A stretch of DNA of 64,000 nucleotides, taken from NCBI RefSeq assembly GCF_030373265.1, contig NZ_JAUCZC010000020.1:1-64000 (forward strand), written 5' to 3'. Below, one piece after another: positions 28,083 to 64,000 of the stretch. The notes beneath the pieces were generated by a model, which was not told where the DNA came from, ran no database searches, and was given only the letters and a program-made list of their open reading frames with translations. Each line of letters begins with the position of its first letter. Position 1 is the first letter of the stretch. The stretch comes from Blastomonas sp. Lineage in GTDB: Bacteria; Pseudomonadota; Alphaproteobacteria; Sphingomonadales; Sphingomonadaceae. The translations under genes and the position numbers were made by a program.

Positions 28083-28196
28083 GCTCCGCGCTTTAGCGCA
28101 GCGCCAAGCGCACTTCCACTGGTAAAAGCATCGTCTCGGCCACACTTAGACCGCACCGCTGCCCGAAAGGCAGCGCGCCTGATGGATGGGGACACG

Positions 28197-28823: not shown

Positions 28824-28860
28824 CGATTGCTTTTGATCCGACGAAGCTCCATTTTCGGGA

Positions 28861-29619: not shown

Positions 29620-29625
29620 AGCCGC

Positions 29626-30429
29626 TCAAACCGTCGGCACGGTCCCGCCATCGATGACATATTCGGTGCCGGTGATCGTGCCCGCGCGATCTGACGCGAG
29701 AAACGCAATCAGGCTGGCAACCTCCATCGGCGACGAGGGACGCCCGATCGGGATACCGCCGAGAGAATCCATGATCATTTTCCTGCCCTGCGCGATATCG
29801 CCGCCGCTCTCTGCCGCTAGCCGCTGAGCGAGATCTATCGAGGCCTCGGTGTCTATCCAGCCCGGCGATACCCGCACCACGCGAACCCCGTGCGGCGAAA
29901 CCTGTTTCGACAGGCTCTTGCTGTAGGTCGACAGCGCCGCCTTGGCCGCAGCATAAGCCGTGGTCGCTTCGGGCAGCGGCAACCGCGACTGGATCGAGGT
30001 CACGTGGATGACCACGCCTTTGCCGCGCTCCACCATGCCCGGAACCAGTTCGCGATCGAGCCGCACCGCTGGCATGAGATTGAGGTCAAGTTCGCTCGCC
30101 CAGAGGACATCGCTTAACGCTTCAAAACCACCGGCGGGCGCGGACGAGCCGCCCAGCATGTGGACGATGATATCGACGCCGCCCAGCCGCTCGTGCACTT
30201 CGGACGCAAGCGCGGCGCAGCCTTCGGCGGTGGTCAGATCGGCAGCGACAAAGGGTGCGTCGAAACCTGCCGGACGCGTGCGCGCGGTCGTCAGGATCTC
30301 GGCACCAAGGTCTTGGAACAGCGAGACGGTTGCCGCTCCCGCGCCGCGCGTGCCCGAGGTTATCAGCGCCCGCTTGCCGGTGAGATCGAGAAACCGATTG
30401 GCGGCTGGAGCGTGTGGTTCGGCGGTCAT
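29626..30429 (-). CDS. SDR family oxidoreductase
   Basis: A 267-residue short-chain dehydrogenase/reductase. The cofactor motif is [11 protein letters not shown] (TGxxxGxG with Ser for the first Gly) and the active site is YAAAK. A TAR segment after the second strand suggests NADP preference. It ends in the typical SDR tail ([15 protein letters not shown]). Its start overlaps the stop of the upstream NTF2-like gene by four bases. A divergent LysR gene probably controls both. Substrate unknown. Confidence 0.9.
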
Positions 30430-30755
30430 GGCACGATCTCCAGCGCTGCGATCATGTCCTCGCTCAGCACAAATCGATAGCGCAGATCGACCGGACTACC
30501 GGGGAAGGTGCCGACAAGGTGGCTGGTGACGATGATCCGGTCGCCCTCGCCGACAATCGCAAACGGCTCGACCGTGTAGCTGTAGGTGCTGGCGGCACCC
30601 TCTTTCCATTCCCGGATTTCGTCGATGCCGGTGTAGGTCTTGCCCTCATCGCGGACGACCGCATCCTGTGCGAAACACCGCATAACAGCGTCGGACCCCT
30701 GCTCCGCATCGGCGGCAAAATACCGTGAAATGATCTCTGGCAGCTCGATATCCAT
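30426..30755 (-). CDS. NTF2-like/SnoaL-like small protein
   Basis: A 109-residue protein of the nuclear-transport-factor-2 fold: an N-terminal helix with [20 protein letters not shown], then [20 protein letters not shown], typical of SnoaL-like polyketide cyclase relatives. Such proteins bind or isomerise small organic molecules. It is the first gene of a two-gene unit with the SDR, divergent from a LysR regulator. Confidence 0.82.
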
Positions 30756-30828
30756 GTTGCGTCTCCATCGTTTGGAAGCGCCCCGTTGGCGCCTGTATCT
30801 GTCACAGCAAGATAGCGATGGACCTTTG

Positions 30829-30844
30829 ATCCGATAATCGGGAT
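30829..30844. promoter_or_regulatory. Imperfect palindrome, putative LysR operator
   Basis: ATCCGATAATCGGGAT, built around CCGATAATCGG, lies 34 bases upstream of the LysR gene and about 75 upstream of the NTF2-like gene, in their divergent 122-base intergenic space. The position and dyad symmetry fit an operator of the LysR protein; a strict T-N11-A box is not evident. Confidence 0.45.
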
Positions 30845-30877
30845 AAATCAGGATGCAGCGTCACGGAAAGCAGGACA

Positions 30878-31777
30878 ATGACCCGACACAGTCTCATCGA
30901 GCTTGATTGCATTCTCGCCATCGCGCGCCGAGGCACGTTTCGCGCGGCCGCGCTGGATTTGGGCCTATCGACGACGGCGGTCAGCAACACCGTGGCCAAG
31001 CTCGAGCGTGAACTCGGGGTCAGGATGTTCAACCGGACCACCCGCAGCGTTTCCCTCACCGACGCCGGTCGTGCGTTCGTCGATCAAGTCACCCCCGCAC
31101 TGCAGGATATCAGGGACGCGATGGACAGCGCGCGGGCGCAGCAGGAGACGCCGTCTGGAACATTGCGCATCAATGCCTTCGCCACCGCAGCTCGGGAAAT
31201 CCTTGCGCCGCTGCTGCTACAGTTTCTTCAGCGCTACCCGCAGGTGCATATCGATCTGGTCACCGAAGGGCGGCTGGTCGATATCGTGGCGGACGGCTTC
31301 GATATCGGCATCCGCACCGACGATCTCGTACCCAGCGATATGATCGCGATCCCGCTGGGATCGGCGCGCAGCCACGCCGTGGTCGCGACGCCCGCCTATC
31401 TGCGCGATTACGGCACCCCGCGTGTTCCGCCCGATTTGCTCGCCCATGCCTGCATAAGGGTGCGGCTACCCAATGGGGCGGCCTATCGGTGGCGCTTCGA
31501 GAAGGACGGGGAAGCCGTCCATATCGATGTCGGCGGGCGGATCACCCTCGACGAGGCCAGTCTGGCGCGGATTGCCGTGCTGGAGGATTTCGGCTTGGGG
31601 TTCTTCATGGAGTCCGATGTCCGCGACGATATCGCCGCGGGCCGTCTTGTCCGGGTGCTGGAAGACTGGACGCCACCGCTTGCGCCCTTGAGCCTGTATT
31701 ATCCAAGCCGGCGCAACCCTTCGGCCGCCTTCAGGGCATTTGTCGACCTCGCCCGCGCATTCGGACGTCAGCGTTAG
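30878..31777 (+). CDS. LysR family transcriptional regulator
   Basis: A 299-residue LysR-type regulator. The winged HTH occupies about 1-60 ([22 protein letters not shown] and [17 protein letters not shown]), followed by a substrate-binding domain ([40 protein letters not shown]). The sequence resembles the GcvA/DsdC-like group with an RTTRSV wing. It is divergent from the NTF2-like/SDR pair, which it probably regulates in response to a small-molecule ligand. Confidence 0.92.
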
Positions 31778-31796
31778 CGCCTGTCAGCGCGCCCGC

Positions 31797-33362
31797 TTAC
31801 TCCCACTCGATCGTGCCTGGGGGCTTCGACGTGTAGTCGTAGACCACGCGGTTGATGCCCTTGACCTCGTTGATGATCCGGGTCGCGGTGCGCTGGAGGA
31901 AGCTCGAGTCGAACGGATAGATATCTGCGGTCATGCCATCGGTGCTGGTCACCGCGCGCAGTGCGCAGACATTGTCGTAGGTGCGGCCATCGCCCATCAC
32001 GCCGACGGTCTTGACTGGCAGCAACACCGCGAACGCCTGCCAGATAGCGTCGTAAAGCCCGGCGTTGCGGATCTCGTCGAGATACACCGCATCGGCCTTG
32101 CGCAGCACGTCGCAGCGCTCGCGGGTCACCTCGCCAGGAATACGGATCGCAAGCCCGGGTCCGGGGAATGGATGGCGGCCGACAAACACGTCGGGCAGGC
32201 CAAGTTCGCGGCCCAGTGCGCGGACCTCGTCCTTGAACAGCTCGCGCAAGGGCTCGACCAGCTTCATGTTCATGCGTTCGGGCAGGCCGCCGACATTGTG
32301 GTGGCTCTTGATTGTTACCGAAGGCCCGCCGGTGAACGACACGCTTTCGATGACATCGGGATAAAGTGTCCCCTGCGCCAGAAACTCCGCGCCGCCGATC
32401 TTGCGGGCCTCGCTCTCGAACACATCGATAAAGGTCTTGCCGATGAACTTGCGCTTGAGCTCGGGATCGGTGACCCCGGCGAGCCCGCCCATGAACAGAG
32501 CTTCGGCCTGCACATGCACCAGCGGGATGTTGTAATGGCCCTTGAACAGGCTGACCACCTGATCGGCCTCGCCCAGCCGCATCAGGCCATGGTCGACGAA
32601 CACGCAGGTCAGCTGGTCGCCGATCGCCTCGTGGATCAGCACCGCCGCGACCGCGCTGTCGACTCCGCCCGACAGCCCGCAGATCACGCGCGAGCTGCCC
32701 ACCTGTTCGCGGATTTCGGCGATCTTGGCGGCCTTGAACTCCGCCATCGACCAATCCCCGCGGCAGCCACAGACATGCCGCACAAAGTTGGCGATCAATT
32801 TCCCGCCATCGGGGGTGTGCACCACCTCGGGGTGAAACTGCATCGCATAAAAACAGCGTTCGTCATCGGCGATCACCGCAAACGGCGCGCCGGGCGAGGA
32901 TGCCACCGTACGGAAGCCGGGCGCCAGCTCGGTGACCTTGTCGCCATGGCTCATCCAGACCTGATGCGCTTCGCCTTCCTTCCACAGCCCGTCGAACAAC
33001 CGGCAGCGATCGGTAATCTCGATAAAGGCTCGGCCAAATTCGCCGCCTTGTTCACCGCCGCCCTCGACCGTGCCGCCCAATTGCTGGGTCATCGTCTGCT
33101 GGCCATAGCAGATCCCCAGGATCGGCAGGCCTGACTGCAGGATGATATCGGGAACCCGCGGGCTGGCTTCGTCGAGCACCGAAGCCGGGCTGCCCGACAG
33201 GATGATCCCCTTGGGCTTCAACCGCTCGAACGCCGCCTCGGCGGTGGTGAACGGGGCGATCTCGCTATACACCCCCGCCTCACGCACCCGGCGTGCGATA
33301 AGCTGCGTCACCTGGCTGCCGAAATCGACAATCAGAACGGATTCGTCATGGGCTATGGTCAT
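31797..33362 (-). CDS. guaA: GMP synthase (glutamine-hydrolysing)
   Basis: Converts XMP to GMP with glutamine and ATP. The N-terminal glutamine amidotransferase domain has nucleophile Cys85 (LGICYGQ) and the His/Glu pair in MQFHPEV. The ATP-pyrophosphatase domain has [12 protein letters not shown], and the C-terminal dimerisation domain ends in PPGTIEWE. The 521-residue length is standard. It is the second gene after an acyl-CoA ligase, with 33 bases between them. Confidence 0.98.
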
Positions 33363-50903: not shown

Positions 50904-51704
50904 TCAATTGCCCTCGGGGTCATAGCCGCCCAGCGGGACCTGCGCATTGACGATGCCGCCATCCACGGGAATGGTCGTGCCAATGACATAGTCCCCTGCC
51001 CGGCTGGCGAGGAAGATCACCGCGCCCGAGATGTCCATCCAGTCGCCGACGCGCTTGTTCGGAATGCCCTTGGACACCATGTCGCCATGATCGCGCGCGG
51101 CCTTGTTCATGTCCGACGGGAACGCGCCCGGGCCGATGCCCGTGACATAGATGTGATCGCGCAGCAGCCTGACGGCCATCCGCTTGGTCAGCTGGATCAG
51201 CGCCGCCTTGCTCGCCTGATAGCTGTAGGTTTCCCACGGATTGATCCGCATGCCGTCGACCGACGAGATGTTGATGACCTTGGCCGGGGTCTCCGCGCTC
51301 GCACCCGCCTTGAGCAGACCGTGCAGCGACTGTGTGAGGAAGAACGGCGATTTGACGTTGAGGTCCATCACCTTGTCCCAGCCGATTTCGGGGAAATCCT
51401 CGAACTCTGCGCCCCAGGCAGCGCCGGCATTGTTGACCAGGATATCGAGCCGTTGCTCATGCTCGGCCAACTGCGCTGCGAGCTGGCGTGTTCCCTCGAC
51501 ACTCGAGACATCGGCGGGCAGCGAGATGCAGTTGGGGCCGAGTTCTTCCGCTGTGGCGTTGCAGGCATCGGCCTTGCGCGCCGAGATATAGACCTTGGCG
51601 CCGCCTGCGATCAGGCCCTGCGCGATCATCTTGCCGATGCCGCGCGAGCCGCCGGTGACCAGCGCAACCTTGCCTTTGACTGAAAACAGCTGTTCGAAAT
51701 TCAT
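50904..51704 (-). CDS. SDR family oxidoreductase
   Basis: A 266-residue classical SDR: cofactor site VTGGSRGIGKMI, NNAG motif (ILVNNAGAAWG), catalytic Ser in ISSVDG, and active site YQASK. It starts four bases after the stop of the acyl-CoA dehydrogenase at 51709-52851, so they are cotranscribed. It could oxidise a hydroxyacyl-CoA or an alcohol from the degradation pathway of the minus arm; the substrate is unknown. Confidence 0.93.
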   Translation of the reverse strand: MNFEQLFSVKGKVALVTGGSRGIGKMIAQGLIAGGAKVYISARKADACNATAEELGPNCISLPADVSSVEGTRQLAAQLAEHEQRLDILVNNAGAAWGAEFEDFPEIGWDKVMDLNVKSPFFLTQSLHGLLKAGASAETPAKVINISSVDGMRINPWETYSYQASKAALIQLTKRMAVRLLRDHIYVTGIGPGAFPSDMNKAARDHGDMVSKGIPNKRVGDWMDISGAVIFLASRAGDYVIGTTIPVDGGIVNAQVPLGGYDPEGN

Positions 51705-51708
51705 CCTA

Positions 51709-52851
51709 TTATCCTTCGTTGCGCAAGGCTTCCCTTGCGATGATGGTGCGCTGGATCTCGCTTGTCCCCTCATAGATGCGGAACAGGCGGACATCGCGGT
51801 AGAAACGTTCGATCCCGTAATCGGCGATATAGCCCGCGCCGCCGAAGATCTGCACCGCGCGGTCGGAGACGCGGCCGACCATTTCCGACGCAATCAGCTT
51901 GGCGCAGGCGCAATCCTCGGTGATGCGTTCACCGCGGTCCTTGGCGCGTGCGGTCTGCAGCACCAAAGCCTTGGCGGCCTTGGCCTCGGCGACGCTGTCG
52001 GCGATCATCGCCTGGATCATCTGAAACTCGGCGATCGGCTTGCCGAACTGCTTGCGCTCCTTGGCATAAGCAACGCTGTCCGCGATCAGCCGCTCGGCAG
52101 CGCCAACACACACCGCCGAGATATGCAGGCGGCCGCGGTCGAGAACGCGCATCGCGACCTTGAAGCCATCGCCTTCCGCGCCCAGCCGGTTTTCGGCAGG
52201 CACGCGGACATTGTCGAAGGTGACATCGCAGACATGCGCGCCCTGCTGGCCCATCTTGCGTTCGGGCTTGCCGACCGAAAGCCCCGGCAGATCGCGCGAG
52301 ACGAGAAACGCGCTGACCCCTTTGGGGCCGGGACCGCCGGTGCGGGCCATCACCGTGAACAGGTCGGCCTTGTCGGCGTTGGTGATGTAGCGCTTCGAGC
52401 CGTTGAGCACATAAACGTCGCCATCAAGCTCTGCACGGGTCTTCACCGCGCCGCTGTCCGATCCGACATCGGGCTCGGTCAGCGCGAACGAGGTGATGAT
52501 CTGCCCGCTGGCGATCAGCGGCAAGTACTTCGCTTTCTGCGCGTCGTTGCCATCCACCACCAACCCCTGGCTGCCGATGCCGACATTGGTGCCGAAGGTC
52601 GATCGCATCGCAGGCGACGTGCGCCCCAGTTCGAACGCTATACGGACCTCTTCCTCCATGTTGAGGCCGAGCCCGCCGAACTCCTCGCTGATCGACAGCC
52701 CGAACAGCCCAAGCTCGCGCATCTCCTGCACGAGGTCGTCGGGGATCTCGTCGGTCTCGGACACCTGCGCCTCCAGCGGACGCAGCCGTTCGGCCACGAA
52801 CCGGCGGACGCCTTCGAGCAATGCGTCGAAAATATCGGGATCGAGTGCCAT
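51709..52851 (-). CDS. Acyl-CoA dehydrogenase (complete active site)
   Basis: A 380-residue FAD-dependent acyl-CoA dehydrogenase. Flavin and substrate motifs: SFALTEPDVGSDSGA, YVLNGSKRYITNAD, ERKQFGKPIAEFQMIQ, and the C-terminal RIYEGTSEIQRTIIAREAL with predicted catalytic base Glu361. The complete EGTSE motif means it can act alone as a homotetramer. It is cotranscribed with the SDR downstream. The 154 bases upstream hold a palindromic repeat. Confidence 0.95.
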   Translation of the reverse strand: MALDPDIFDALLEGVRRFVAERLRPLEAQVSETDEIPDDLVQEMRELGLFGLSISEEFGGLGLNMEEEVRIAFELGRTSPAMRSTFGTNVGIGSQGLVVDGNDAQKAKYLPLIASGQIITSFALTEPDVGSDSGAVKTRAELDGDVYVLNGSKRYITNADKADLFTVMARTGGPGPKGVSAFLVSRDLPGLSVGKPERKMGQQGAHVCDVTFDNVRVPAENRLGAEGDGFKVAMRVLDRGRLHISAVCVGAAERLIADSVAYAKERKQFGKPIAEFQMIQAMIADSVAEAKAAKALVLQTARAKDRGERITEDCACAKLIASEMVGRVSDRAVQIFGGAGYIADYGIERFYRDVRLFRIYEGTSEIQRTIIAREALRNEG

Positions 52852-53005: not shown

Positions 53006-54142
53006 TCAATACCCGAAAATCTCGGCAACCCGGCCTGCGTGGAAGTTCGCGTCGCCCATGAACTCGTTCAACGCCCGGTCGCGCTTCATGTAGAAGCCGA
53101 TGTCGTATTCGTCGGTCATGCCGATGCCGCCGTGCATCTGCACGCCTTCGCGCACGACCAGATTGGTGGTGCGCCCTGCCTTGGCCTTGGCGACCGAGAC
53201 ATAGACCTCCGCGCTGTCCTTGCCTTCGTCGAGCAATTGCTGCGCCTTGAGCACCGCAGCGCGCGCGATCTCCATCTCGCTGTAGAGATGCGCCGAGCGA
53301 TGCTGCAGCGCCTGGAACTCGCCGATCAGACGCCCGAACTGCTTGCGCTGCTTGAGATAATCGACGGTCATGTCCATCGCGCCAGCACCGACGCCGACCA
53401 GCTCGGCCGACGACCCTGCGCGGCCTGCGCGAAGCAGGGCCGACAGCACCTGCCAGCCGTTGTCGACCTCTCCGATCACCGCATCGCCATCGACCTCGAC
53501 GCCGTCGAGCGTGACGTGCGCTGCCATCGCGCTGTCGACCAGCCGCGCGCTGTCCATCGACATGTTGGCCGCATCCTTGTCGACCGCAAACAGCGTGATG
53601 CCATCGGTTTCGCCCGGCGACCCGGCGGTGCGCGCCGCGACGATCAACGCGTCGGCGCTGGCGCCCTGGATCACGAACTGCTTTTGTCCGGTCAGCTTGA
53701 AGCCGTTGCCCGAACGCTCGGCCTTGGTCGCGATGTGAGCAGGCCGGTGCTTGGCGCCTTCGTCGATCGCCAGCGCCAGCACAGTGTTACCCGCCAGAAT
53801 GCCGGGAAAGAACTTGTCCTTGAGATGCTGGCCGCCATGGTTGAGCGCGGACACACCTGCAATCGCGGTGGTCAGGAACGGCGACGGCGACAGGTTGCGG
53901 CCGATCTCCTCGAGCACCACGCCGGCTTCGACATGGCCGAGGCCAAGCCCGCCATCGTCTTCGCCGATCAGGATGCCGGTAAAGCCCATTTCGCCGAACT
54001 GCTTCCATAAGGCGTGACGGAAACCGTCCTTGCAGTTGTCGTCGCGCAGCTTCCGCAGATGGCTGACCGGCGCTTCGGATTTGAGGAATTCGCGTGCGCT
54101 GTCGCGCAGCATCGCCTGGTCTTCGTTGAGGTACATTGGCAT
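53006..54142 (-). CDS. Acyl-CoA dehydrogenase-like subunit without the catalytic Glu motif
   Basis: A 378-residue acyl-CoA dehydrogenase-fold protein. The N-terminal domain (EMGFTGILIGEDDGGLGLGH) and flavin-domain segments (KQRKQFGRLIGEFQALQHRS, REGVQMHGGIGMTDEYDIGF) are clear, but where a catalytic EGTSE should occur near the C-terminus it reads RDRALNEFMGDANFHAGRVA. It resembles the non-catalytic partner of heterotetrameric acyl-CoA dehydrogenases. Its neighbour at 54280-55461 keeps the motif. ATG 54142 is used; Met at 54136 is possible. Confidence 0.9.
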   Translation of the reverse strand: MPMYLNEDQAMLRDSAREFLKSEAPVSHLRKLRDDNCKDGFRHALWKQFGEMGFTGILIGEDDGGLGLGHVEAGVVLEEIGRNLSPSPFLTTAIAGVSALNHGGQHLKDKFFPGILAGNTVLALAIDEGAKHRPAHIATKAERSGNGFKLTGQKQFVIQGASADALIVAARTAGSPGETDGITLFAVDKDAANMSMDSARLVDSAMAAHVTLDGVEVDGDAVIGEVDNGWQVLSALLRAGRAGSSAELVGVGAGAMDMTVDYLKQRKQFGRLIGEFQALQHRSAHLYSEMEIARAAVLKAQQLLDEGKDSAEVYVSVAKAKAGRTTNLVVREGVQMHGGIGMTDEYDIGFYMKRDRALNEFMGDANFHAGRVAEIFGY

Positions 54143-54279: not shown

Positions 54280-55461
54280 TCAAGCCCCCGGCAGATCCAG
54301 GATGCGCTTTGCGATCACGTTGAGCATCACCTCGCTGGTGCCGCCCTCGATGCTGTTCGCCTTGGTGCGCAGCCAGTTGCGCGCCTTGGCGCCGCCCTTC
54401 GAAGCTTCGCTCTCCCATTCGAGCGCGTCCGAGCCATTGCCCGCCATCACCAGTTCGTGGCGGCGCTTGTTGAGCTCGGTCCCGGCGTACTTCATCATGT
54501 TCGGCTGCGCGGGATGGCCCTTGCCCGACTTCATTTCGTCGGTGAAGCGCTCGGCCATCGCCTTGAACGCCAATGCATCGACATCGAACTGCGCCAGCTC
54601 TGCACGCAGCAGACCATCGTCGAGCTGGCCGAGTCCATTGGCACCAATCGAGGCGAGCATCTGTGCGCCCAGCGACGGCGCGCCATCGCCCAGACCGCCG
54701 CCCGAGATCATCTCGCGCTCATGGCCGAGCAGGTATTTGGCGACATCCCAACCGCGGTTCAGCGGACCGACCATCTGCTCCTTGGGCACCACGACATCGT
54801 CGAAGAAGGTCTCGCAAAACGGCGAGTTGCCACTGATCAGCTTGATCGGCTTGGTCGAGACGCCCGGCGTTTCCATATCGAACAGCAGGAAAGAGATGCC
54901 CTGATATTTGTTGGTCTTGTCGGTGCGGACCAGACAGAAAATCCAGTCGCACTTGTCGGCATAGCTGGTCCAGATCTTGCTGCCATTGACGTTCCAGTGA
55001 TCGCCTTTGTCTTCGCCGAACGTCTGCAGGCTGACGAGGTCCGAACCCGAACCCGGCTCCGAATAGCCCTGGCACCAGCGGATTTCGCCGCGGGCGATCT
55101 GGCCAAGATAATGCACTTTCTGTTCTTCGGTTCCGAAGTGCAGCAACGCAGGGCCGAGCATCCAGATGCCGAAGCTCGACAGCGGCGGCCGGGCATTGAT
55201 CCGCGCCATTTCCTGCCGCAAAATTTTGGCCTCGCCAGCCGAAAGCCCGGCGCCGCCATAGGCCTTGGGCCAGTCGGGAACGGTGTAGCCCTTGGCCACG
55301 CAACGCTCGAGCCACAGCTTCTGCGCTTCGTTCTTGAAGGTCCAGTTGCGCCCGCCCCAGCAGACGTCATCCTCGCCGCGTACCGGTTCGCGCATCTCGG
55401 CCGGGCAGTTCGCCTCCAGCCACTCGCGCACGTCCAGCCTGAACTGATCGAGATCGCTCAT
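54280..55461 (-). CDS. Acyl-CoA dehydrogenase with catalytic Glu
   Basis: A 393-residue acyl-CoA dehydrogenase of the FadE type seen in steroid and terpenoid degradation: N-terminal FRLDVREWLEANCPAEMREP, substrate/flavin region GYSEPGSGSDLVSLQT, NGSKIWTSYADKCDWIFCLV, and C-terminal SIEGGTSEVMLNVIAK with the predicted catalytic Glu372. It is immediately upstream of the 53006-54142 subunit on the same strand. The start at 55461 follows GGGAGAGG; ATG 55467 is possible. It is the first gene of the minus arm. Confidence 0.94.
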   Translation of the reverse strand: MSDLDQFRLDVREWLEANCPAEMREPVRGEDDVCWGGRNWTFKNEAQKLWLERCVAKGYTVPDWPKAYGGAGLSAGEAKILRQEMARINARPPLSSFGIWMLGPALLHFGTEEQKVHYLGQIARGEIRWCQGYSEPGSGSDLVSLQTFGEDKGDHWNVNGSKIWTSYADKCDWIFCLVRTDKTNKYQGISFLLFDMETPGVSTKPIKLISGNSPFCETFFDDVVVPKEQMVGPLNRGWDVAKYLLGHEREMISGGGLGDGAPSLGAQMLASIGANGLGQLDDGLLRAELAQFDVDALAFKAMAERFTDEMKSGKGHPAQPNMMKYAGTELNKRRHELVMAGNGSDALEWESEASKGGAKARNWLRTKANSIEGGTSEVMLNVIAKRILDLPGA

Positions 55462-55597
55462 CGTCATCCTCTCCCGCATGGTTAAATCCTGTGCGCGCTC
55501 TGGCCGGAAAGATTTTTCTGCGGTCAAAACTGCGCTTCGCGACTCAGTCTATGGTGGAGCGAACCGGGCTGCAAGCCTGTTGAATCCTACGCCGAAT

Positions 55598-55635
55598 GCC
55601 GTAACGTCATCGCCAGCGGAGTTGACGTTTACGGC
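55598..55635. promoter_or_regulatory. Large inverted repeat between divergent catabolic arms
   Basis: GCCGTAACGTCA (55598-55609) and TGACGTTTACGGC (55623-55635) are inverted copies with one extra base in the right arm, separated by 13 bases. They lie in the 323-base divergent space between the minus-arm dehydrogenase and the plus-arm transporter. The right arm overlaps the TTGACG of a promoter-like sequence, so this looks like an operator for a dimeric regulator that is not encoded in the window. Confidence 0.6.
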
Positions 55636-55680: not shown

Positions 55681-55788
55681 ATGCAGCGGGCCACCTGGTC
55701 CATCGCATCGCCAGCGCCACAAGGTGCGGCGGTGCCCCGGCCCGACCGTTGGCAACCCGCCGTCGGACAAGGCGATCGCCACGCATGA
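55681..55788 (+). CDS. 35-codon upstream ORF coupled to the transporter gene
   Basis: A short ORF (ATG 55681, MQRATWSIASPAPQ...) with a strong ribosome binding site, GGGAGAG, five bases upstream. Its TGA overlaps the ATG of the transporter (ATGA at 55785-55788), whereas the transporter itself has no clear ribosome binding site. This points to translational coupling or a leader peptide. The peptide has no recognisable domain and may not be conserved as protein. Confidence 0.45.
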   Translation: MQRATWSIASPAPQGAAVPRPDRWQPAVGQGDRHA

Positions 55789-57227
55789 CCGATCTTGCCA
55801 GCCTGACCACCAAGCCAGTAGCTGCCCGCGTGTCGATGGGCACCAAGCTGGCCTATGGGTTCGGGTCTGTGGCGTACGGCATCAAGGATAATGGTTTTGC
55901 CGTCTTCCTGCTGATCTACTTCAATCAGGTTGTCGGCATGCCCGCCGAACAGGTGGGACTGGCCGTGCTGATCGCGCTGATCGCGGACGCCTTCTTCGAT
56001 CCGATCGTCGGGCACAAGTCCGATGCGACTCGCAGCCGCTGGGGGCGACGCCACCCCTGGCTGTATGCCGCAGCCGTGCCGATCGCCCTGTCATGGATCC
56101 TGCTGTGGAACCCGCCGCAGATCGGCGATGGCCTGATGTTCTTCTACGTCATTTTTGTGGCCATGGCGGTGCGCTTCTCGTTCTCGGCCTATGAGGTGCC
56201 AGCGCTCGCGATGCTGCCCGAGCTGACACGCGACTATCACGAGCGCACCGAGGTGCTGCGCTACCGCTTCCTGTTTGGATGGCTGGGCGGGCTGGTGATG
56301 CTGTATGCGGCCTATGCGCTGCTGCTCGTGCCCGAACCGGGCTACGACAATGGCATACTCAATCCCAACGGGTATCATCGCTATGCGGTGGTAGGGTCGA
56401 TCGTGATGCTGATCTCGGTGGTTGTTTCGGCGCTGGGCACGCACAAATTGATGGCGCGGCCCAACCAGTCCGATGCCAAGAGCGTTTCGCACGGGTTCAG
56501 CGATTTTGGAGCGGCGCTGCGGTTTCGACCGTTCCAGATCCTGCTGGGCGCAGGCGTCTGCGCATTCGCCAGCCAAGGTCTGACGTTTGCACTGACCAAC
56601 TATTTGCTGCTGTATGTCTGGGAGCTGCCGCCTTCGGCGTTCAACATCTATCCGTTCGTCCTGTTTGTCGGTGTGGCTCTCGCGTTCGGCATCGTCGGGC
56701 CGATGTCGCGCCGTCTGGAAAAGGGGCCGACCGGAGCAGTGTCGGCGGTGCTGTCATTGATCTTCGGCACCCTACCCTATTGGTTGCGCTGGTTGGGACT
56801 CTTTCCCGACAATGGATCGGACTTGGCGACCGCGGCGGTCCTGGGCCTGATCGCGCTGTCGATGACCTTCGGGATCTGCGCGATGATGATGATCAGTTCG
56901 ATGATCGCCGATGTCACCGACGCACATGAAGCGCGCACCGGAAAGCGCACCGAGGGGATTTTCTTTGCCGGGTTCTTCTTCATGCAGAAATGCATCGGGG
57001 GCCTGGGAATTCTCGCCTCTGCGCTGATCCTGTCGATTGCCGGCTTTCCCGAAAACGCCCAGCCCGGTGAGGTCTCTGCAGAGGTGATCGACCGGCTCGC
57101 CATCACCTTTGCCATCACGGCGACCATCATCGGCATCGGTTGCGCGTGGCTGTTCACCCGCTTTCCCCTCGGCCGCGCCGACCACGAGGCACGGCTCGCC
57201 GAAATCGCAAAAGCCAGATTATCATGA
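55785..57227 (+). CDS. GPH-type MFS transporter
   Basis: A 480-residue inner-membrane symporter-like protein of the glycoside-pentoside-hexuronide family. The first helix region (KLAYGFGSVAYGIKDNGFAV) and the loop motif (ADAFFDPIVGHKSDATRSRW, then GRRHPWLY) are typical. About 12 transmembrane segments are visible. It is the first large gene of the plus arm and probably imports the compound degraded by the downstream enzymes; relatives in sphingomonads sit in lipid, sterol or terpenoid clusters. 15 bases separate it from the next gene. Confidence 0.9.
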   Translation: MTDLASLTTKPVAARVSMGTKLAYGFGSVAYGIKDNGFAVFLLIYFNQVVGMPAEQVGLAVLIALIADAFFDPIVGHKSDATRSRWGRRHPWLYAAAVPIALSWILLWNPPQIGDGLMFFYVIFVAMAVRFSFSAYEVPALAMLPELTRDYHERTEVLRYRFLFGWLGGLVMLYAAYALLLVPEPGYDNGILNPNGYHRYAVVGSIVMLISVVVSALGTHKLMARPNQSDAKSVSHGFSDFGAALRFRPFQILLGAGVCAFASQGLTFALTNYLLLYVWELPPSAFNIYPFVLFVGVALAFGIVGPMSRRLEKGPTGAVSAVLSLIFGTLPYWLRWLGLFPDNGSDLATAAVLGLIALSMTFGICAMMMISSMIADVTDAHEARTGKRTEGIFFAGFFFMQKCIGGLGILASALILSIAGFPENAQPGEVSAEVIDRLAITFAITATIIGIGCAWLFTRFPLGRADHEARLAEIAKARLS

Positions 57228-57242
57228 AAGGACACCCCAAAC

Positions 57243-58532
57243 ATGGATTTTGATCTCAACGAGCGTCAGGCCTATTGGCGCGACCGCGTCCGTGCCTTCA
57301 TCGAAAGCAACGTCCGCCCGCGCGAGCACGACTATCACCAACAGCAGGCCGAAGGCTCGCGCTGGAAGGTGCTGCCGGTGATCGAGGAAGAGAAGGCCAA
57401 GGCCAAGGCCGCAGGCATCTGGAACCTGTTCATGCCGCCGTCGAACCCCAATCTGGCGCATGTCGATGACAGCTTCGAGTTCGACGGTCCGGGCCTCACC
57501 AACCTCGAATACGCCTTGTGCGCCGAGGAAATGGGCCGCGTCGGCATGGCCAGCGAGGTCTTCAACTGCTCGGCGCCCGATACCGGCAACATGGAAGTGC
57601 TGCATCGCTATGGCACCCGCGCGCACAAGGACGAGTGGCTGAAGCCCTTGATGGATGGCGAAATCCGTTCTGCCTTTCTGATGACCGAACCCCAGGTCGC
57701 CTCGTCCGATGCGACCAACATCGAAACCTCGATCCGCCGCGAGGGCGACGAATATGTCATCAACGGCCGCAAATGGTGGTCGTCGGGTGCCGGCGATCCG
57801 CGCTGCAAGATCGCGATCGTCATGGGCAAGACCGATTTCGAGGCCAAGCGCCATGCCCAGCAGTCGATGGTGCTGATGCCGCTCGATGCGCCCGGTGTGA
57901 ACATCGTGCGTCACCTGCCCGTGTTCGGCTATGATGATGCGCCCCACGGTCACATGGAAATCGAGCTCAAGAATGTTCGCATCCCGGCATCCAACATGCT
58001 GCTCGGCGAAGGCCGCGGGTTCGAGATCGCGCAGGGCCGCCTCGGGCCGGGCCGCATCCATCACTGCATGCGCACCATCGGTGTCGCCGAAGAAGCGCTC
58101 GCCAAGATGGCCCGTCGCCTGCAGACCCGTGTCGCCTTCGGCAAGCGCATTTCCGAATTCAGCATCTGGGAAGAGCGCCTCGCTACCGCCCGGATCGATA
58201 TCGAGATGAACCGGCTGCTGTGCCTCAAGGCCGCAGACATGATGGACAAGGTCGGCAACAAATACGCCAAGGCCGAAATCGCCATGATCAAGGTGGCTGC
58301 GCCGCGCATGGCATTGAAGATCATCGACGATGCCATCCAGGCGCATGGCGGCGCTGGCGTGAGCGAAGACTTCGGTCTCGCCAAGGCCTATGCCCATATG
58401 CGCACGCTGCGGCTTGCCGATGGTCCCGATGAAGTGCACAACCGCACCATCGCGCGCATCGAGCTGGGACGCCATGGTGTGAACGATGACGACGGCGCAT
58501 TGAGCTCGGGCGATCTGGGCGTGGCGCGCTGA
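57243..58532 (+). CDS. ACAD11-like acyl-CoA dehydrogenase
   Basis: A 429-residue acyl-CoA dehydrogenase of the ACAD10/ACAD11/LvaC group. It contains [73 protein letters not shown] and the terminal [18 protein letters not shown], which in human ACAD11 reads nearly the same. In place of the usual EGTSE base the segment is GPDEVH. Human ACAD11 and Pseudomonas LvaC convert a 4-phosphoacyl-CoA to an enoyl-CoA; with the APH-like kinase two genes downstream this suggests 4-hydroxyacid breakdown. Confidence 0.93.
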
Positions 58533-58540
58533 TCGATCTT

Positions 58541-58563
58541 CCCCCTCCCCTTGCGGGAGGGGG
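58541..58563. repeat. G/C hairpin similar to the element at 52872-52996
   Basis: CCCCCTCCC and GGGAGGGGG pair around a short loop (CTTGC), just after the ACAD11-like stop codon; it shares the CCCTCCC/GGGAGGG core with the element near 52900. It could also damp transcription between the dehydrogenase and the alcohol dehydrogenase, but there is no T run. Confidence 0.6.
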
Positions 58564-58619
58564 AAAGCCCCGCACAAGACGGGGGCGCAGGACGAAGGAT
58601 AGGGCTTGGGAGAGCAACG

Positions 58620-59702
58620 ATGAAAGCCGCCATCTGTTATGAGCCGGGCAAGCCGCTGGAGGTGCGCGAGGTCATCATCGACAAGCCTGGCCCGCGTGAG
58701 GTGCTGATCCGCACCGCAGCGACCGGGGTGTGCCGATCCGATCTTCACTTCGTCGACGGTACCTATCCGCATCCCCTGCCCTTCATCCCCGGCCACGAAG
58801 CTGCAGGAATTGTCGAGGCGGTGGGTGACGGCGTGTCGACTGTGAAGGTGGGCGATGCGGTGGTCACCTGCCTCAGCGCCTATTGCGGCCATTGCGAATA
58901 TTGCGTCACCGGACAGATGTCGCTGTGCCTGGGCGGGGATACACGCCGCGCACCCGGCGCGCCGCCACGGCTGCGGCTCGAGGACGGACCGCTCAACCAG
59001 ATGCTCAACCTGTCGGCTTATGCCGAAATGATGCTGATCCACGAGCACGCCTGTGTCGCGATCAATCCCGAGATGCCGCTGGACCGCGCCTGCGTAATCG
59101 GCTGTGCGGTCACCACCGGTGCGGGCGCGATTTTCAATGCCGCCGATCTGGTTCCCGGCGAGACCGTTGCAATCGTCGGCTGCGGGGGGGTCGGGCTGGC
59201 GGCGGTCAACGCCGCGAAGATTGCAGGCGCCGGGCGTATCATCGCAATCGATCCTGTTGCCGAGAAACGCGCGCTCGCTCACAGATTGGGCGCGACAGAC
59301 ATGATCGATTCGAGCGCCGACGGTGCCGCCGCGCAGATCATCGAGATGACCAAGGGCGGCGTCCATCACGCGATCGAAGCCGTCGGTCGGCCAGCATCGG
59401 GAGCAATGGCGGTGAAGGTCCTGCGGCGCGGCGGCACCGCGACCATTCTGGGAATGATGCCGCTCACCGAAAAGGTTTCCCTGGGTGCGATGGAGTTGCT
59501 TCAGGGCAAGAAGCTCCAAGGGTCGCTTATGGGCAACAACCGATTTCCCGTTGAAATTCCACGACTTGTGGAGTTCTATATGCGCGGGATGCTGGACCTC
59601 GACACGATTATTGCCGAACGCATGCCGCTCGAGCGGATCAACGATGCCTTCGATGCGCTGCGGGTCGGCGATTCCGCGCGCTCGGTGATCACATACAACT
59701 GA
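58620..59702 (+). CDS. Zinc-dependent alcohol dehydrogenase (MDR family)
   Basis: A 360-residue medium-chain dehydrogenase. Catalytic zinc ligands: Cys38 (GVCRSDLH) and His59-Glu60 (GHEAAG). The structural zinc site is complete (Cys89, 92, 95, 103 in YCGHCEYCVTGQMSLC). NAD is bound by VGCGGVGLAAVNAAKIAGAG with an Asp after the second strand (IAID), so NAD is preferred. ATG 58620 follows a GGGAGAG. It probably oxidises a hydroxylated intermediate in the same pathway. Confidence 0.94.
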   Translation: MKAAICYEPGKPLEVREVIIDKPGPREVLIRTAATGVCRSDLHFVDGTYPHPLPFIPGHEAAGIVEAVGDGVSTVKVGDAVVTCLSAYCGHCEYCVTGQMSLCLGGDTRRAPGAPPRLRLEDGPLNQMLNLSAYAEMMLIHEHACVAINPEMPLDRACVIGCAVTTGAGAIFNAADLVPGETVAIVGCGGVGLAAVNAAKIAGAGRIIAIDPVAEKRALAHRLGATDMIDSSADGAAAQIIEMTKGGVHHAIEAVGRPASGAMAVKVLRRGGTATILGMMPLTEKVSLGAMELLQGKKLQGSLMGNNRFPVEIPRLVEFYMRGMLDLDTIIAERMPLERINDAFDALRVGDSARSVITYN

Positions 59703-59724
59703 TTGGGTGAGGATTTAAGCGATT

Positions 59725-60798
59725 ATGGATCAGATCGACGCACAGGCGACGATGACCGGCACCATGGAGGTGCCCGAGCAGGACCGGCTTGACGAAGCGA
59801 AGCTCACGGCCTGGTTCGAGGCCAATGTCGAGGGCTTCTCCGGCCCGCTGACGATGTCCAAGTTCAAGGGTGGCCAGTCCAACCCCACCTACAAGGTAAC
59901 CACCCCGGACGCTGCCTATGTGCTGCGGCGCAAGCCGTTCGGCACGCTGCTGCCGTCGGCGCATGCCGTCGATCGCGAATACCGTGTCCAGGCAGCGCTC
60001 TACGATCAGGGCTTTCCGGTCTCACGCCAGTTCGGCCTGTGCGAGGACGAGAGCGTCATTGGCTCGATGTTCTATGTCATGGCCTTCACGGATGGTGCGA
60101 GCTACTGGGATGGCACGCTGCCGGGCAAGACCCCCGATGAGCGAGCCGCGATCTACAACGCGATGATCGATACGCTGGCGCATCTGCACAGCTTCGATCC
60201 TGCCGCAATCGGGCTTGAAAGCTATGGCAAGCCGGGCAATTATTGTGCGCGACAGATCTCGCGCTGGACCAAGCAGTATCGCCTGTCCGAGACTGAAACT
60301 ATTCCAGAGATGGACCAGCTGATTGCATGGCTTGAAAAAACCGTGCCCGAGCAGCGCGGATTCGGCATCGCGCACGGCGATTTTCGCATCGACAACATGA
60401 TCTTCGCCAAGGATGAGCCCAAGGTGCTGGCGGTGCTTGATTGGGAGTTGTCGACGCTGGGTGATCCCATCGCCGACCTGTCCTATTTCCTGATGAGCTG
60501 GGTGCAGCCCGCCGAGGGCCGCAACGGGTTGCTGGGTGTGGACTTGCAGGCGCTGGGAATTCCGACGATGGAAGAAGCCATGGCGCGCTACAGCGAAAAG
60601 GCCAGGCTGGATCATGTGCCGGATCTCGACTGGTACCTGGCCTACAATCAGTTCCGGATTGCCGCGATTTTGCAGGGCATCAAGAAACGCGTGATCGATG
60701 GGACCGCTTCGAGCTCTCAGGCCGAGCAGATGGCCCAGCGGGTGATTCCGCTCGCGCAGGCTGCCTGGGCCTATGCCAAGAAGGCCGGGGCGCGCTAA
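59725..60798 (+). CDS. APH-like phosphotransferase, ACAD10/ACAD11 N-terminal type (LvaA-like)
   Basis: A 357-residue aminoglycoside-phosphotransferase-fold kinase. KFKGGQSNPTYKV and YVLRRKPFGTLLPSAHAVDR match the N-terminal kinase part of ACAD11. The catalytic Brenner box is H217-G-D-F-R-I-D-N224 and the metal-binding Asp239 is in VLDWELSTLGDPIADL. In animals this domain is fused to the dehydrogenase; here they are separate genes in one operon. LvaA phosphorylates 4-hydroxyvaleryl-CoA; the substrate here is unknown. Confidence 0.93.
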   Translation: MDQIDAQATMTGTMEVPEQDRLDEAKLTAWFEANVEGFSGPLTMSKFKGGQSNPTYKVTTPDAAYVLRRKPFGTLLPSAHAVDREYRVQAALYDQGFPVSRQFGLCEDESVIGSMFYVMAFTDGASYWDGTLPGKTPDERAAIYNAMIDTLAHLHSFDPAAIGLESYGKPGNYCARQISRWTKQYRLSETETIPEMDQLIAWLEKTVPEQRGFGIAHGDFRIDNMIFAKDEPKVLAVLDWELSTLGDPIADLSYFLMSWVQPAEGRNGLLGVDLQALGIPTMEEAMARYSEKARLDHVPDLDWYLAYNQFRIAAILQGIKKRVIDGTASSSQAEQMAQRVIPLAQAAWAYAKKAGAR

Positions 60799-60800
60799 GC

Positions 60801-61577
60801 ATGTCCAGCTTCGATCTGACCGGGCGTGTCGCAGTCATCACCGGTTCTTCGCGCGGCATCGGCGCTTCCACCGCGCGCAAGCTGGCAGAGCATGGCGCCA
60901 AGGTTGTCATTTCAAGCCGCAAGCAGGATGCCTGCGATGCGCTGGCGGCCGAGATCAACGCGCAGCACGGTACGGCCACTGCGATCGCCATCGCTGCCAG
61001 CATATCGCGCAAGGAGGATCTTCAGAACCTCGTCGATCAGACGCGCGCGCAACTGGGACCGATCGACATTCTTGTCTGCAACGCGGCGAGCAATCCGTAT
61101 TACGGCCCGATGGGAGGAATCAGCGACGACCAATTCCGCAAGATCCTCGACAACAACATCCTGTCCAATCACTGGCTGATCCAGATGGCGCTACCAGACA
61201 TGCGCGCCGCCGGGCGCGGATCGGTGATCATCATCTCTTCGATCGGTGGAATGCAGGGTGCTCGCAGCATCGGGGTGTACAACATCTCGAAGGCAGCGGA
61301 CTTCCAGCTCGCCCGCAATCTCGCAGTCGAACTGGGCGTCGACAATATCCGCGTCAACTGCATCGCACCGGGCCTGATCCAGACAGATATGGCGCGCGCC
61401 TTGTGGGAGGACGAGAAGCTAATGGGCTATGTTCGCACCGTCACCCCGCTGCGGCGGATCGGGCAGCCCGATGAGATCGCCGACGCAGCGGTGTTTCTGG
61501 CTTCGGATGCATCGACCTATATCACCGGCCAGTCCATCGTCATCGATGGCGGCACCACTATCGCAGCGGCGATCTGA
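60801..61577 (+). CDS. SDR family oxidoreductase (DHRS4-like)
   Basis: A 258-residue classical SDR starting two bases after the kinase stop codon. Cofactor site [24 protein letters not shown] in place of the NNAG, catalytic Ser in ISSIGG, and active site YNISKAA. RKQDA after the second strand suggests NADP. The sequence resembles peroxisomal DHRS4-like reductases. In the proposed 4-hydroxyacid route it could interconvert oxo- and hydroxyacyl groups. Confidence 0.93.
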
Positions 61578-61600: not shown

Positions 61601-62392
61601 ATGGATCTTCAGGGCAAGGTTGCCATCGTCACGGGCGCGGGCAGCGGCATCGGCAGGGCGAGCTGCCTGCTGTTCGCACAGCACGGCGCCAAGGTCATCG
61701 CGAGCGACATCACCGGCAAGCAGGACGAAACGGCTGCGGAGAATCCGGGCGCGATTACGGCAGTCCAGGCTGACGTTAGCAAGGAAGCCGATGTCCAGAT
61801 GCTCGTCAGCAAGGCTGTCGAGCAGCAAGGCAAGCTTGATGTGTTCTTCGCCAACGCGGGCATTTCCGGCGGGTTCGACGGCATCTTCGACCAGACCGTC
61901 GAGGAATGGGAGCGTATCCTGGCGATCAACCTGATCGGGCCGTTTCTCGCGATCAAGCATGCGGGCAAGGCGATGGCCGACGCCGGCAACGGTGGATCGA
62001 TCATCTGTACCGCCTCGGTTGCGGGCTTGCGTTCGGGAGCAGGCGGTCCTGCCTATACCGCGAGCAAGGCTGGCGTGATCAATCTTGTGCGGATTGCTGC
62101 GCAGCAATTGACCGGCAGCGACGTGCGCTGCAACGCCATCTGCCCTGGCCTGATTCAGACGGGGATGACCGAATTCATCTATACCAAGGCGCGCGAGAAG
62201 GGCTTTGAGGACAAGATCGGTCAGCTCAACCCCATGCAGCGCGGTGGCGTTCCCAACGAGATCGCAGAGGCGGCCCTGTTCTTGGCGTCCAACAGGTCGA
62301 GCTATGTGAACGGGCATGCGCTGGTGGTCGACGGCGGGCTCAGCACTTCGCATCCCTATGCCCGGCAGCGTTTTGGCCAGACCGCCACGTGA
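61601..62392 (+). CDS. SDR family oxidoreductase
   Basis: A 263-residue classical SDR with a strong ribosome binding site (AGGAGGG). Cofactor site [13 protein letters not shown] with an Asp in SDITG, ANAG motif ([10 protein letters not shown]), catalytic Ser/Thr region ICTASVAGL, and active site [11 protein letters not shown] preference is likely. A second SDR in the same operon suggests two different alcohol/ketone steps. Confidence 0.93.
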
Positions 62393-62428: not shown

Positions 62429-63649
62429 ATGAGTATTTTTGTGTCTGACCCGGCTGACCTTGGCTTCAACCAGGATTTGCTCGAGCGCATTCCGACCCAT
62501 ATCCAGAGCAAGTATCTGGAAACCAAACGCCTGCCGCATGCCGCGGTGCTGATCGGGCGGGGGCACGAGGTGGCGCAGCTTTCGCTGCAGGGCGAGGCGC
62601 GCCCGGGGCAGCCGCTTGCGGAGAATGCGATTTTCCGGATCGCCAGCATGACCAAGCCGATCACCTCGGTCGCGTTCATGCAGCTTGTCGAGGAAGGAAA
62701 GCTGGCGCTCTCGGATCCTGTTCACCGGGTGATCCCCGAATGGAAGAACCTCGGCGTTTTCGTCTCAGGCGGCGGCGCCCAGCCATTCGTCACGCGGCCG
62801 ACAACTCAACCGATGCGGATGATCGACCTGCTGCGGCACACCTCGGGGCTGACCTATGGCTTTCAGGAGCGCACGCCGATCGATGCGGCGTACCGCAAGC
62901 ACAAACTGGAAGCCTTTGCCGGCCCCGATCTCGAAGAGTTTATCCGCATCCTGGCGGATGTCCCGCTGCAGTTCGATCCCGGCACGTCGTGGAACTATTC
63001 GATCTCGACTGACATACTCGGCGCGATCCTCCAGCGTGTCGATGACAAGCCGCTCGACCAGATCATCGCGGATCGGGTCACCGCGCCGCTGGGTATGGAC
63101 GACACGCATTTCCAGATTCCCGAGGGCAAGCTGGATCGCGTCCCCGATTGCTATGTCTTCCACCCCACCGAGCGGATGAAGATGTACGATCCCGGGGCGA
63201 CCACCGCCTGGGGCCGCAAGCCCAGCCAGCTTTCGGGCGGTGGCGGCATGGCTTCGACCCTGGCCGACTATCACCGGTTCTGCCGGATGCTGCTCAACGG
63301 CGGCACGTTGGATGGCGTGCGCATCCTGGGCCGCAAGACGCTTGATCTGATGATCGCCAACCACCTGCCCGGCGGCGGCGACCTGACCCAGCACAGCAAA
63401 GCGCTGTTCAGCGAGGCAGAGAATGCTGGCGCAGGCTTTGGCCTGGGATTTGCCACCACCATCGACAGCGCCGCAACCGGCGTCCCCGGCTCGGTCGGCG
63501 ACTTCTATTGGGGCGGCATGTTCTCAACCGCGTTCTTCGTCGATCCGGTCGAAGACATCGTGATGATCTTCATGACGCAGCTTATGCCGTCCAGCACCTA
63601 TCCCATCCGGCGAGAGATCAAGACGATGCTCTACGCCGCCGTCGAATAA
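62429..63649 (+). CDS. Serine hydrolase, class C beta-lactamase/EstB fold
   Basis: A 406-residue serine hydrolase. The SxxK motif S73-M-T-K76 (RIASMTKPI) and Tyr190 (WNYSIS) supply the catalytic Ser, Lys and Tyr. The GGGGMAST region and the C-terminal [15 protein letters not shown] match EstB-type esterases. No signal peptide is evident, so it is probably cytoplasmic, arguing against a beta-lactamase role. It could open a lactone or hydrolyse an ester in this operon. Confidence 0.9.
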
Positions 63650-63665: not shown

Positions 63666-64000
63666 ATGTCCGATTCCCCGATCTCCACCGAGAAACGCGG
63701 CGATGTTCTGATCGTCACGTCCAACAACCCACCGGTCAACGCGCTCGGCGCGGGTGTACGCACCGGACTGGAAGCTGCCCTCAATGAAGCCGCCGCCGAT
63801 GACGGCATAAAGGCGATCGTGCTGATCTGTGCTGGCCAGACTTTCTTCGCCGGGGCCGACATCACCGAATTCGGCAAACCGCCTGTCGAACCCATGCTCC
63901 CCGCGATCATCGCGCGCATGGAAGCCTTCGACAAGCCGGTGGTCGCTGCGATTCACGGCACCGCTTTGGGTGGCGGGCTGGAGACCGCACTGTGCGCGCA
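63666..64000 (+). CDS. Enoyl-CoA hydratase/3-hydroxyacyl-CoA dehydrogenase (FadJ-like), partial
   Basis: The first 111 residues of a crotonase-superfamily protein; the gene runs off the window. [38 protein letters not shown] (oxyanion-hole GAD) and [17 protein letters not shown] are typical of the N-terminal domain of bifunctional FadJ/FadB-type proteins. ATG 63666 follows AAGGAAAA. It supplies the hydration and dehydrogenation steps of beta-oxidation that would receive the enoyl-CoA made upstream. Confidence 0.9.

Follow-up and report, generated by a model that had tools for sequence, protein, structure and literature searches.

The window analysed here comprises positions 1-64000 of the 76,440-base contig NZ_JAUCZC010000020.1, from the 3.66 Mb genome of a Blastomonas species (Sphingomonadaceae). 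It contains a cluster of twelve genes, about 15 kb long and with its last gene running past the window end, in which an acyl-CoA dehydrogenase (ACAD) and an APH-fold kinase resemble the two domains of animal ACAD10 and ACAD11. Eight co-directional genes, spanning 55785-65693 with intergenic gaps of about 2-87 bp, encode in this order a GPH-type transporter, the ACAD10/11-type dehydrogenase, a zinc alcohol dehydrogenase (ADH), the kinase, two short-chain dehydrogenases (SDR1 and SDR2), an esterase and a FadJ-type enzyme. The divergent arm, reaching to 50904, encodes PimC-like and PimD-like proteins, an ordinary ACAD and a further short-chain dehydrogenase, SDR0. Families were assigned from Pfam and NCBIfam, and the labels of a simple gene caller were kept only where tblastn agreed, because GC-rich DNA gives spurious open reading frames (ORFs). 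We propose, with a probability of roughly 0.83, that the two genes encode a two-protein version of ACAD10/ACAD11, which would convert 4-hydroxyacyl-coenzyme A (CoA) via 4-phosphoacyl-CoA into 2-enoyl-CoA, the FadJ-type enzyme acting next.

A preliminary description of this DNA had recognised a split ACAD10/11 module, and that identity is borne out: both ORFs are intact, the six motifs quoted for them all occur in the translations, and the PDB sequence matches stand far above other families. The dehydrogenase matches two ACAD11 chains, 8v3u (E 3e-132) and 2wbi (2e-131), and the bacterial protein 4hr3 (2e-127); after these, the 60 matches listed drop to 1e-36. For the kinase, 3dxp (2e-116), the ACAD11 kinase domain (4e-79) and 9o56 (2e-49) are followed by a match at 3e-10. 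Identities to the ACAD11 chain 8v3u/8v3v are 57.3% over 379 aligned columns for the dehydrogenase and 40.6% over 342 for the kinase, and neither protein reaches any NCBIfam cut-off. A tree was built from 55 kinases after thinning at 70% identity, its branching inside the ACAD11 side being only partly resolved; in it the window kinase groups with ACAD11, 3dxp and 9o56 and is split (100/100) from kinases linked to DUF6285; its nearest named relatives belong to Blastomonas species, Sphingomonas ursincola and Sphingomonas sp. 35-24ZXX (89-91% identity). Judged on these sequences, the resemblance of both proteins to ACAD10/11 is homology and not chance.

Residues described as key to ACAD11 in PMC12440821 are R626, R631, H634, R637 and D753 in the dehydrogenase and R86, R176, D220 and N225 in the kinase. 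They were located by motif, D220 and D753 being confirmed from the altered letters in two ACAD11 chains. Chain numbering is that of PMC12440821 minus one, with the exception of R86, which was mapped by description only, as the Arg beside the alpha-C Glu, and falls at position 83 of the chain, off the paper's number. The window dehydrogenase carries the HCMR motif and the upstream Arg (R626, H634, R637) together with R631, and the catalytic Asp (D753) replaces Glu; the window kinase has the catalytic D220/N225 and the CoA-contact R86/R176. Among the fetched loci, matches of fewer than 300 residues or containing a stop being omitted, the five dehydrogenase residues are present in 110/110 proteins closest to the window dehydrogenase, many of them closely related and hence not independent. 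The same set occurs in the proteins closest to the enzyme of a DUF6285 operon (L235; 8/8), to 4hr3 (4/4) and to ACAD11 (1/1), and in none of the 82 PimC-like, 83 PimD-like and 32 ordinary ACADs. The four kinase residues, R86 again by description, were found in all 115 window-type kinases.

These residues bear on two other explanations. An ordinary ACAD linked to electron-transferring flavoprotein (ETF), with an unrelated kinase as its neighbour, would account for the fold and the flavin adenine dinucleotide (FAD) domain, which are typical of ACADs, but not for the HCMR motif, the extra arginine and the Asp base of the 110 homologues, nor for the pairing of both genes at genome level, and is exceedingly improbable. 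That the kinase acts on another small molecule, such as an aminoglycoside, or on another hydroxyl position would agree with its APH fold and with the broad Pfam and NCBIfam family names, the only ones it received. We consider this very unlikely, however, since the NCBIfam APH(3') score, at 27 bits, stays below the cut-off of 205, the CoA-contact residues of ACAD11 are conserved, and the kinase is paired with the dehydrogenase in operon and genome alike.

The pairing was followed through 196 genomes of the order, of which 132 have the kinase (E<=1e-60) and 159 the dehydrogenase (E<=1e-90). When the lists were matched by hand, 127 genomes had both genes, five the kinase without the dehydrogenase and 32 the dehydrogenase without the kinase, so that the dehydrogenase occurs in 127/132 kinase genomes versus 32/64 others (Fisher p 5e-14, kinship ignored). 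One family (f5) supplies 27 of the 32 dehydrogenase-only genomes. A renewed search of fifteen f5 genomes at E<=1e-10 gave a more distant kinase in each; in the ten with both places listed, kinase and dehydrogenase share a strand and are about 4-20 kb apart. The whole search at this level was positive in 30/30 genomes (these 15, 13 of Pseudomonadaceae type and two others), and the four ACAD11 kinase residues are kept in ten loci fetched from it. At phylum level the dehydrogenase was found in 129/398 genomes (E<=1e-110), in the genus taken to be Pseudomonas in 144/149, and plasmid records include 249 with the kinase (E<=1e-20) and 123 with the dehydrogenase (E<=1e-90). A large bacterial family would carry the ACAD10/11 route for 4-hydroxy acids as a regular component of its gene repertoire. 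In one genome two kinase-dehydrogenase pairs face each other (L086:4857-9402), one dehydrogenase being of the window type and the other closest to the L235 enzyme.

Because the active-site residues of both the ACAD11 dehydrogenase and its kinase are present, the 4-hydroxyacyl-CoA route is the best reading of the pair, and the chemistry foreseen in the preliminary description is, by analogy, upheld. ACAD10 and ACAD11 are described as phosphorylating the 4-position with ATP, deprotonating C2 by an Asp and losing phosphate to yield 2-enoyl-CoA, FAD taking part as a transient redox partner and no external electron acceptor being involved (PMC11342911, PMC12440821), the exact role of the flavin being a proposal in both papers. 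Both reactions are carried over from these orthologues to what was observed here, namely homology, residues, gene order and conservation. The kinase would use ATP to phosphorylate the 4-hydroxyl of 4-hydroxyacyl-CoA. In the dehydrogenase, the Asp standing in for the usual Glu would remove the C2 proton, the bound FAD may carry a hydride transiently, and the phosphate bound by R/H/R would leave, yielding 2-enoyl-CoA, with no electrons handed to ETF. The FadJ-type enzyme carries enoyl-CoA hydratase and 3-hydroxyacyl-CoA dehydrogenase domains and therefore fits as the step after enoyl-CoA formation; it would hydrate and oxidise the product into normal beta-oxidation. We guess that two enzymes, the esterase and the zinc ADH, probably work ahead of the pair, with an ester, lactone or alcohol as their substrate, and that the DHRS4-like SDR1 may interconvert 4-oxo- and 4-hydroxyacyl-CoA. 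The substrate might then be, again as a guess, a longer or branched 4-hydroxy or 4-oxo acid from an ester or lactone.

Several points weigh against this route: (i) reaction at the 4-position is an assumption carried over from the orthologues; (ii) neither a CoA ligase nor a thiolase is found among the cluster genes; (iii) the literature search yielded no biochemistry or genetics on this organism or cluster; (iv) the five kinase-positive genomes mentioned above are dehydrogenase-negative at the cut-offs used; (v) the pair is not invariably adjacent, 11 of the 23 related loci that reach 15 kb and are devoid of the ADH showing no dehydrogenase of the ACAD10/11 type within what was fetched, and (vi) six loci of Pseudomonadaceae type, read on either side of the dehydrogenase, contained no kinase, four being of the genus taken to be Pseudomonas and two of its family. 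One further alphaproteobacterium (L231) does have a ligase gene after the pair and SDR1, and a divergent second dehydrogenase copy (L267) does have an adjoining kinase. Kinase-free use of the Pseudomonadaceae-type dehydrogenase was considered and rejected, a related kinase being present elsewhere in 13/13 genomes searched.

Table 1. Coordinates of the cluster genes and of related features; positions without a locus prefix are those of the window.
Feature	Position	Strand	Remarks
SDR0, short-chain dehydrogenase	50904..51704	-	divergent arm
ordinary acyl-CoA dehydrogenase	51709..52851	-	Glu in catalytic column, without HCMR motif
PimD-like small subunit of two-subunit acyl-CoA dehydrogenase	53006..54142	-	divergent arm; start codon uncertain
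PimC-like large subunit of two-subunit acyl-CoA dehydrogenase	54280..55479	-	divergent arm; start codon uncertain
inverted repeat GCCGTAACGTCA...TGACGTTTACGGC	55598..55635	.	between divergent arms; conserved in six close relatives
GPH-type MFS transporter	55785..57227	+	first operon gene; ends 15 bp 5' of dehydrogenase
ACAD10/11-type acyl-CoA dehydrogenase (predicted 4-phosphoacyl-CoA phosphate-eliminating)	57243..58532	+	429 aa; R626/R631/H634/R637/D753 of ACAD11 present
zinc alcohol dehydrogenase, NDMA-dependent/class-III-like	58620..59702	+	below both NCBIfam cut-offs; coordinates take first ATG, searches used start two codons earlier
ACAD10/11-type APH-fold kinase (predicted 4-hydroxyacyl-CoA kinase)	59725..60798	+	357 aa; R86 (by description), R176, D220, N225 of ACAD11 present; tree
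SDR1, DHRS4-like short-chain dehydrogenase	60801..61577	+	PDB matches, reciprocal search, tree
SDR2, short-chain dehydrogenase	61601..62392	+	Pfam/NCBIfam
beta-lactamase-fold esterase	62429..63649	+	SxxK at residue 73; 7pp3 'Esterase' E 5e-112
FadJ-type enoyl-CoA hydratase/3-hydroxyacyl-CoA dehydrogenase, start	63666..64000	+	runs on to contig position 65693 (L007:8666-10693)
Phaeobacter histidine phosphatase	L181:9317-9967		near kinase
Phaeobacter AMP-binding ligase	L181:13219-15201		near kinase
kinase-DUF6285-dehydrogenase-SDR operon, Pseudomonas-type genomes	L268:6921-10259, L269:6088-9423

The zinc ADH, two SDRs, esterase and FadJ-like enzyme named as neighbours in the preliminary description were all confirmed, the last lying mostly beyond the window end. 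The ADH has the zinc motifs of such enzymes, and the beta-lactamase-fold esterase presumably belongs to class VIII.

The pair had also been equated with LvaA and LvaC of levulinate (lva) catabolism. The equation holds for the predicted reactions, which are the same, and is loose for LvaA, the window kinase falling in the ACAD10/11 clade and not among DUF6285-linked kinases. We regard it as unlikely that the cluster is itself an lva pathway, with equivalents of LvaA, LvaC and LvaD acting on 4-hydroxyvaleryl-CoA. The two chemical steps would be identical, the transporter could bring the acid in, and an SDR adjoins the pair as in lvaABCD (PMC6692424). However, SDR1 groups with DHRS4 and not with the SDR of an lvaABCD-like Pseudomonas operon, and the twelve cluster genes, to which this search was confined within the genome, include no levulinyl-CoA ligase, LvaFG-type transporter or LvaR-type regulator. 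Membership was rejected on the absence of DUF6285 beside the pair and the position of the kinase outside the DUF6285-linked clade. Direct comparison with the LvaABCD sequences themselves would carry more weight than all these points.

The two-protein ACAD10/11 pair can be set beside four known systems. It shares with LvaA/LvaB/LvaC of P. putida a separate kinase and dehydrogenase and a nearby SDR, and differs in having no adjoining DUF6285 gene (the presumed LvaB); its kinase clade differs from that of LvaA if DUF6285-linked operons are lva operons. The LvaA/LvaC orthologues of Burkholderia, compared by description only, are likewise stand-alone bacterial proteins; they are reported to be closer to ACAD10 than those of P. 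putida and to have replaced ACAD10 parts in vitro (PMC11342911). The P. citronellolis levulinate cluster has a kinase sharing 59% identity with LvaA and a dehydrogenase sharing 78% with LvaC, and is reported to have no lvaB in the region, but unlike the window it includes a histidine phosphatase, the CoA ligase LvaE2 and an acetate-type symporter (PMC6692424). Animal ACAD11 and ACAD10 are homologous in both domains, with catalytic and substrate residues conserved; in contrast to them, the window has two separate proteins with the zinc ADH gene between, in a bacterial operon with esterase, SDRs and FadJ, and the HAD domain of ACAD10 is not present. The preliminary description had ranked this module as its strongest candidate for a system still lacking a detailed description. 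That rank cannot be maintained, since the reaction is in print for ACAD10/11 (PMC11342911, PMC12440821), stand-alone Burkholderia orthologues (PMC11342911) and an lvaB-free lva-type cluster (PMC6692424) are published, and both genes are widespread (132/196 and 159/196 genomes of the order). The pair is real, well conserved and chemically interpretable, a common split form with known chemistry; what is newly described here, within the literature searched, are its surroundings in Sphingomonadaceae, a cluster of 15 kb.

We take LvaB to be a DUF6285 protein, an assignment with which the gene order of five genomes agrees and a published identity figure disagrees. On this assumption, the earlier remark that no LvaB-like helper is visible holds for the cluster: no DUF6285 gene lies beside the pair, and the only match in the genome, on contig C39, is fused to another kinase. 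That fusion is a single ORF of 468 aa (L004:859-2265, minus strand), joining a kinase of the other clade to a C-terminal DUF6285 domain; open frames of 455-487 aa with kinase and DUF6285 occur also in three genomes of the family (L210-L214), and these ORFs are perhaps natural LvaA-LvaB fusions. DUF6285 was found in 26/299 genomes phylum-wide and in 8/149 of the genus taken to be Pseudomonas, and an APH-type kinase match adjoins it or shares its frame in all 27 phylum-wide and all 8 Pseudomonas-type loci read. The lvaABCD order, kinase-DUF6285-dehydrogenase-SDR, appears in five of the latter; in L268 and L269 the dehydrogenase has the phosphate-eliminating signature despite only about 34% identity to the window protein. 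Because the L235 operon dehydrogenase is only 34% identical to the window protein, versus 62% for LvaC and ACAD10 (PMC11342911), the DUF6285 operons are no more than candidate lva operons, and their kinases a doubtful guide to whether LvaA lacks the CoA-contact arginines.

R86 and R176 occur together in every window-type kinase (115/115) versus 0/39 of those closest to the DUF6285-linked queries, one of the two being present in 1/39, by a cross-clade alignment that is unsure at 21-23% identity, mostly around R176. At a guess, DUF6285 stands in for the CoA contacts of the kinase. Six Sphingomonadaceae genomes of 100% estimated completeness (G005, G039, G044, G047, G053 and G056) contain kinase and dehydrogenase with no DUF6285 match; on this account, and given that the only DUF6285 of the window genome is fused to an other-clade kinase, the window-type kinase occurs without the helper. 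Bacterial kinases accordingly sort into DUF6285-free and DUF6285-linked clades, which bears on the role of LvaB.

SDR1 connects the operon with a second animal enzyme. At E<=1e-40 it matches only three PDB sequences, all named DHRS4 (identity about 39-40%). A reverse search with DHRS4 (2zat) was made in 13 genomes, chosen because SDR1 lies close to both genes of the pair or to either, and offering 23-69 SDR candidates each; the neighbour gene in the SDR1 position was the top match in 11 and second in G381, and in G639 the top match lay elsewhere. In a tree of 39 SDRs, DHRS4 falls with SDR1 in a seven-row set (95/92) that includes two other rows, one very long; other positions are taken by SDR0, SDR2 and the lvaABCD-like operon's own SDR. 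DHRS4 is a peroxisomal carbonyl reductase of animals whose natural substrate is not firmly established. Both names, DHRS4 and ACAD11, turn up in five publications, never together in a title or abstract, and a narrower search was negative. The sequence comparisons lead to the prediction of a functional link between DHRS4 and ACAD11, and the cluster offers a test of this unsuspected tie. A wider scheme is possible but doubtful: a DHRS4-type reductase, converting 4-oxoacyl-CoA into 4-hydroxyacyl-CoA, could be the third member of the ACAD10/11 pathway, animal DHRS4 could likewise feed peroxisomal ACAD11, and kinases without the CoA-contact arginines might need DUF6285/LvaB for acyl-CoA binding, so that the window-type kinase would manage without a helper. 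A general SDR1 link is opposed by its rarity elsewhere: outside the order, 20 loci surrounding the dehydrogenase were retrieved, nine of them holding a window-type kinase, and SDR1 (at least 50% identity) adjoins the pair in only three (L220, L231, L234); it occurs in one of the 23 loci without ADH.

Conservation of the surrounding genes was assessed in loci extending 10 kb to each side of the kinase, which contig ends may cut. Dehydrogenase, ADH and kinase are adjacent on one strand in 40 of the 70 loci found by the kinase. Of these loci, 59 span 15 kb or more; the ADH, at no less than 50% identity, is present in 36 of the 59 and absent from 23. The 36 contain the dehydrogenase, PimC and PimD in every case, the transporter in 35 and SDR0 in 33, followed by SDR1 and SDR2 (25 each), esterase (24) and FadJ (22); the corresponding numbers for the 23 are SDR0 17, dehydrogenase 12, PimC and PimD 10 each, esterase 7 and SDR2 1. 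The literature on the cluster, on bacterial ACAD10/11 pairs and on DHRS4 yielded no description of this arrangement, which in Sphingomonadaceae is apparently catabolic. Its conserved genes suggest a further partner enzyme, as a prediction, and the others may point to the natural substrate.

In a Phaeobacter locus (L181) the kinase is accompanied by PimC, PimD, SDR0, a nitronate-monooxygenase-family protein, a histidine phosphatase, an esterase, an AMP-binding ligase and an ORF resembling enoyl-CoA hydratase by eye; on the strength of this locus, the two-subunit dehydrogenase, SDR0 and esterase recur near the kinase outside sphingomonads. A histidine phosphatase is present in the P. citronellolis lva cluster too (PMC6692424). 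PimCD homologues of beta-proteobacteria have fitness phenotypes in dicarboxylate use (PMC12543098), which by analogy hints at a dicarboxylic substrate; steroid or bile-salt catabolism was also considered, from the two-subunit dehydrogenase and the SDRs. The window genome has a second, paralogous cluster on contig C17 at about 28000-33000 (L097:4044-8992, minus strand), with PimD-, PimC- and GPH-transporter-like genes and an ACAD; the latter is about 40% identical to ACAD11 and has the RRHRD signature, and no kinase match lies within the 19 kb read. No regulator gene was found among the cluster genes, though the dyad between the arms is conserved. At the equivalent place in other genera, words like GACGCTACGGC and TTGACGC...GCGTAA recur between the arms.

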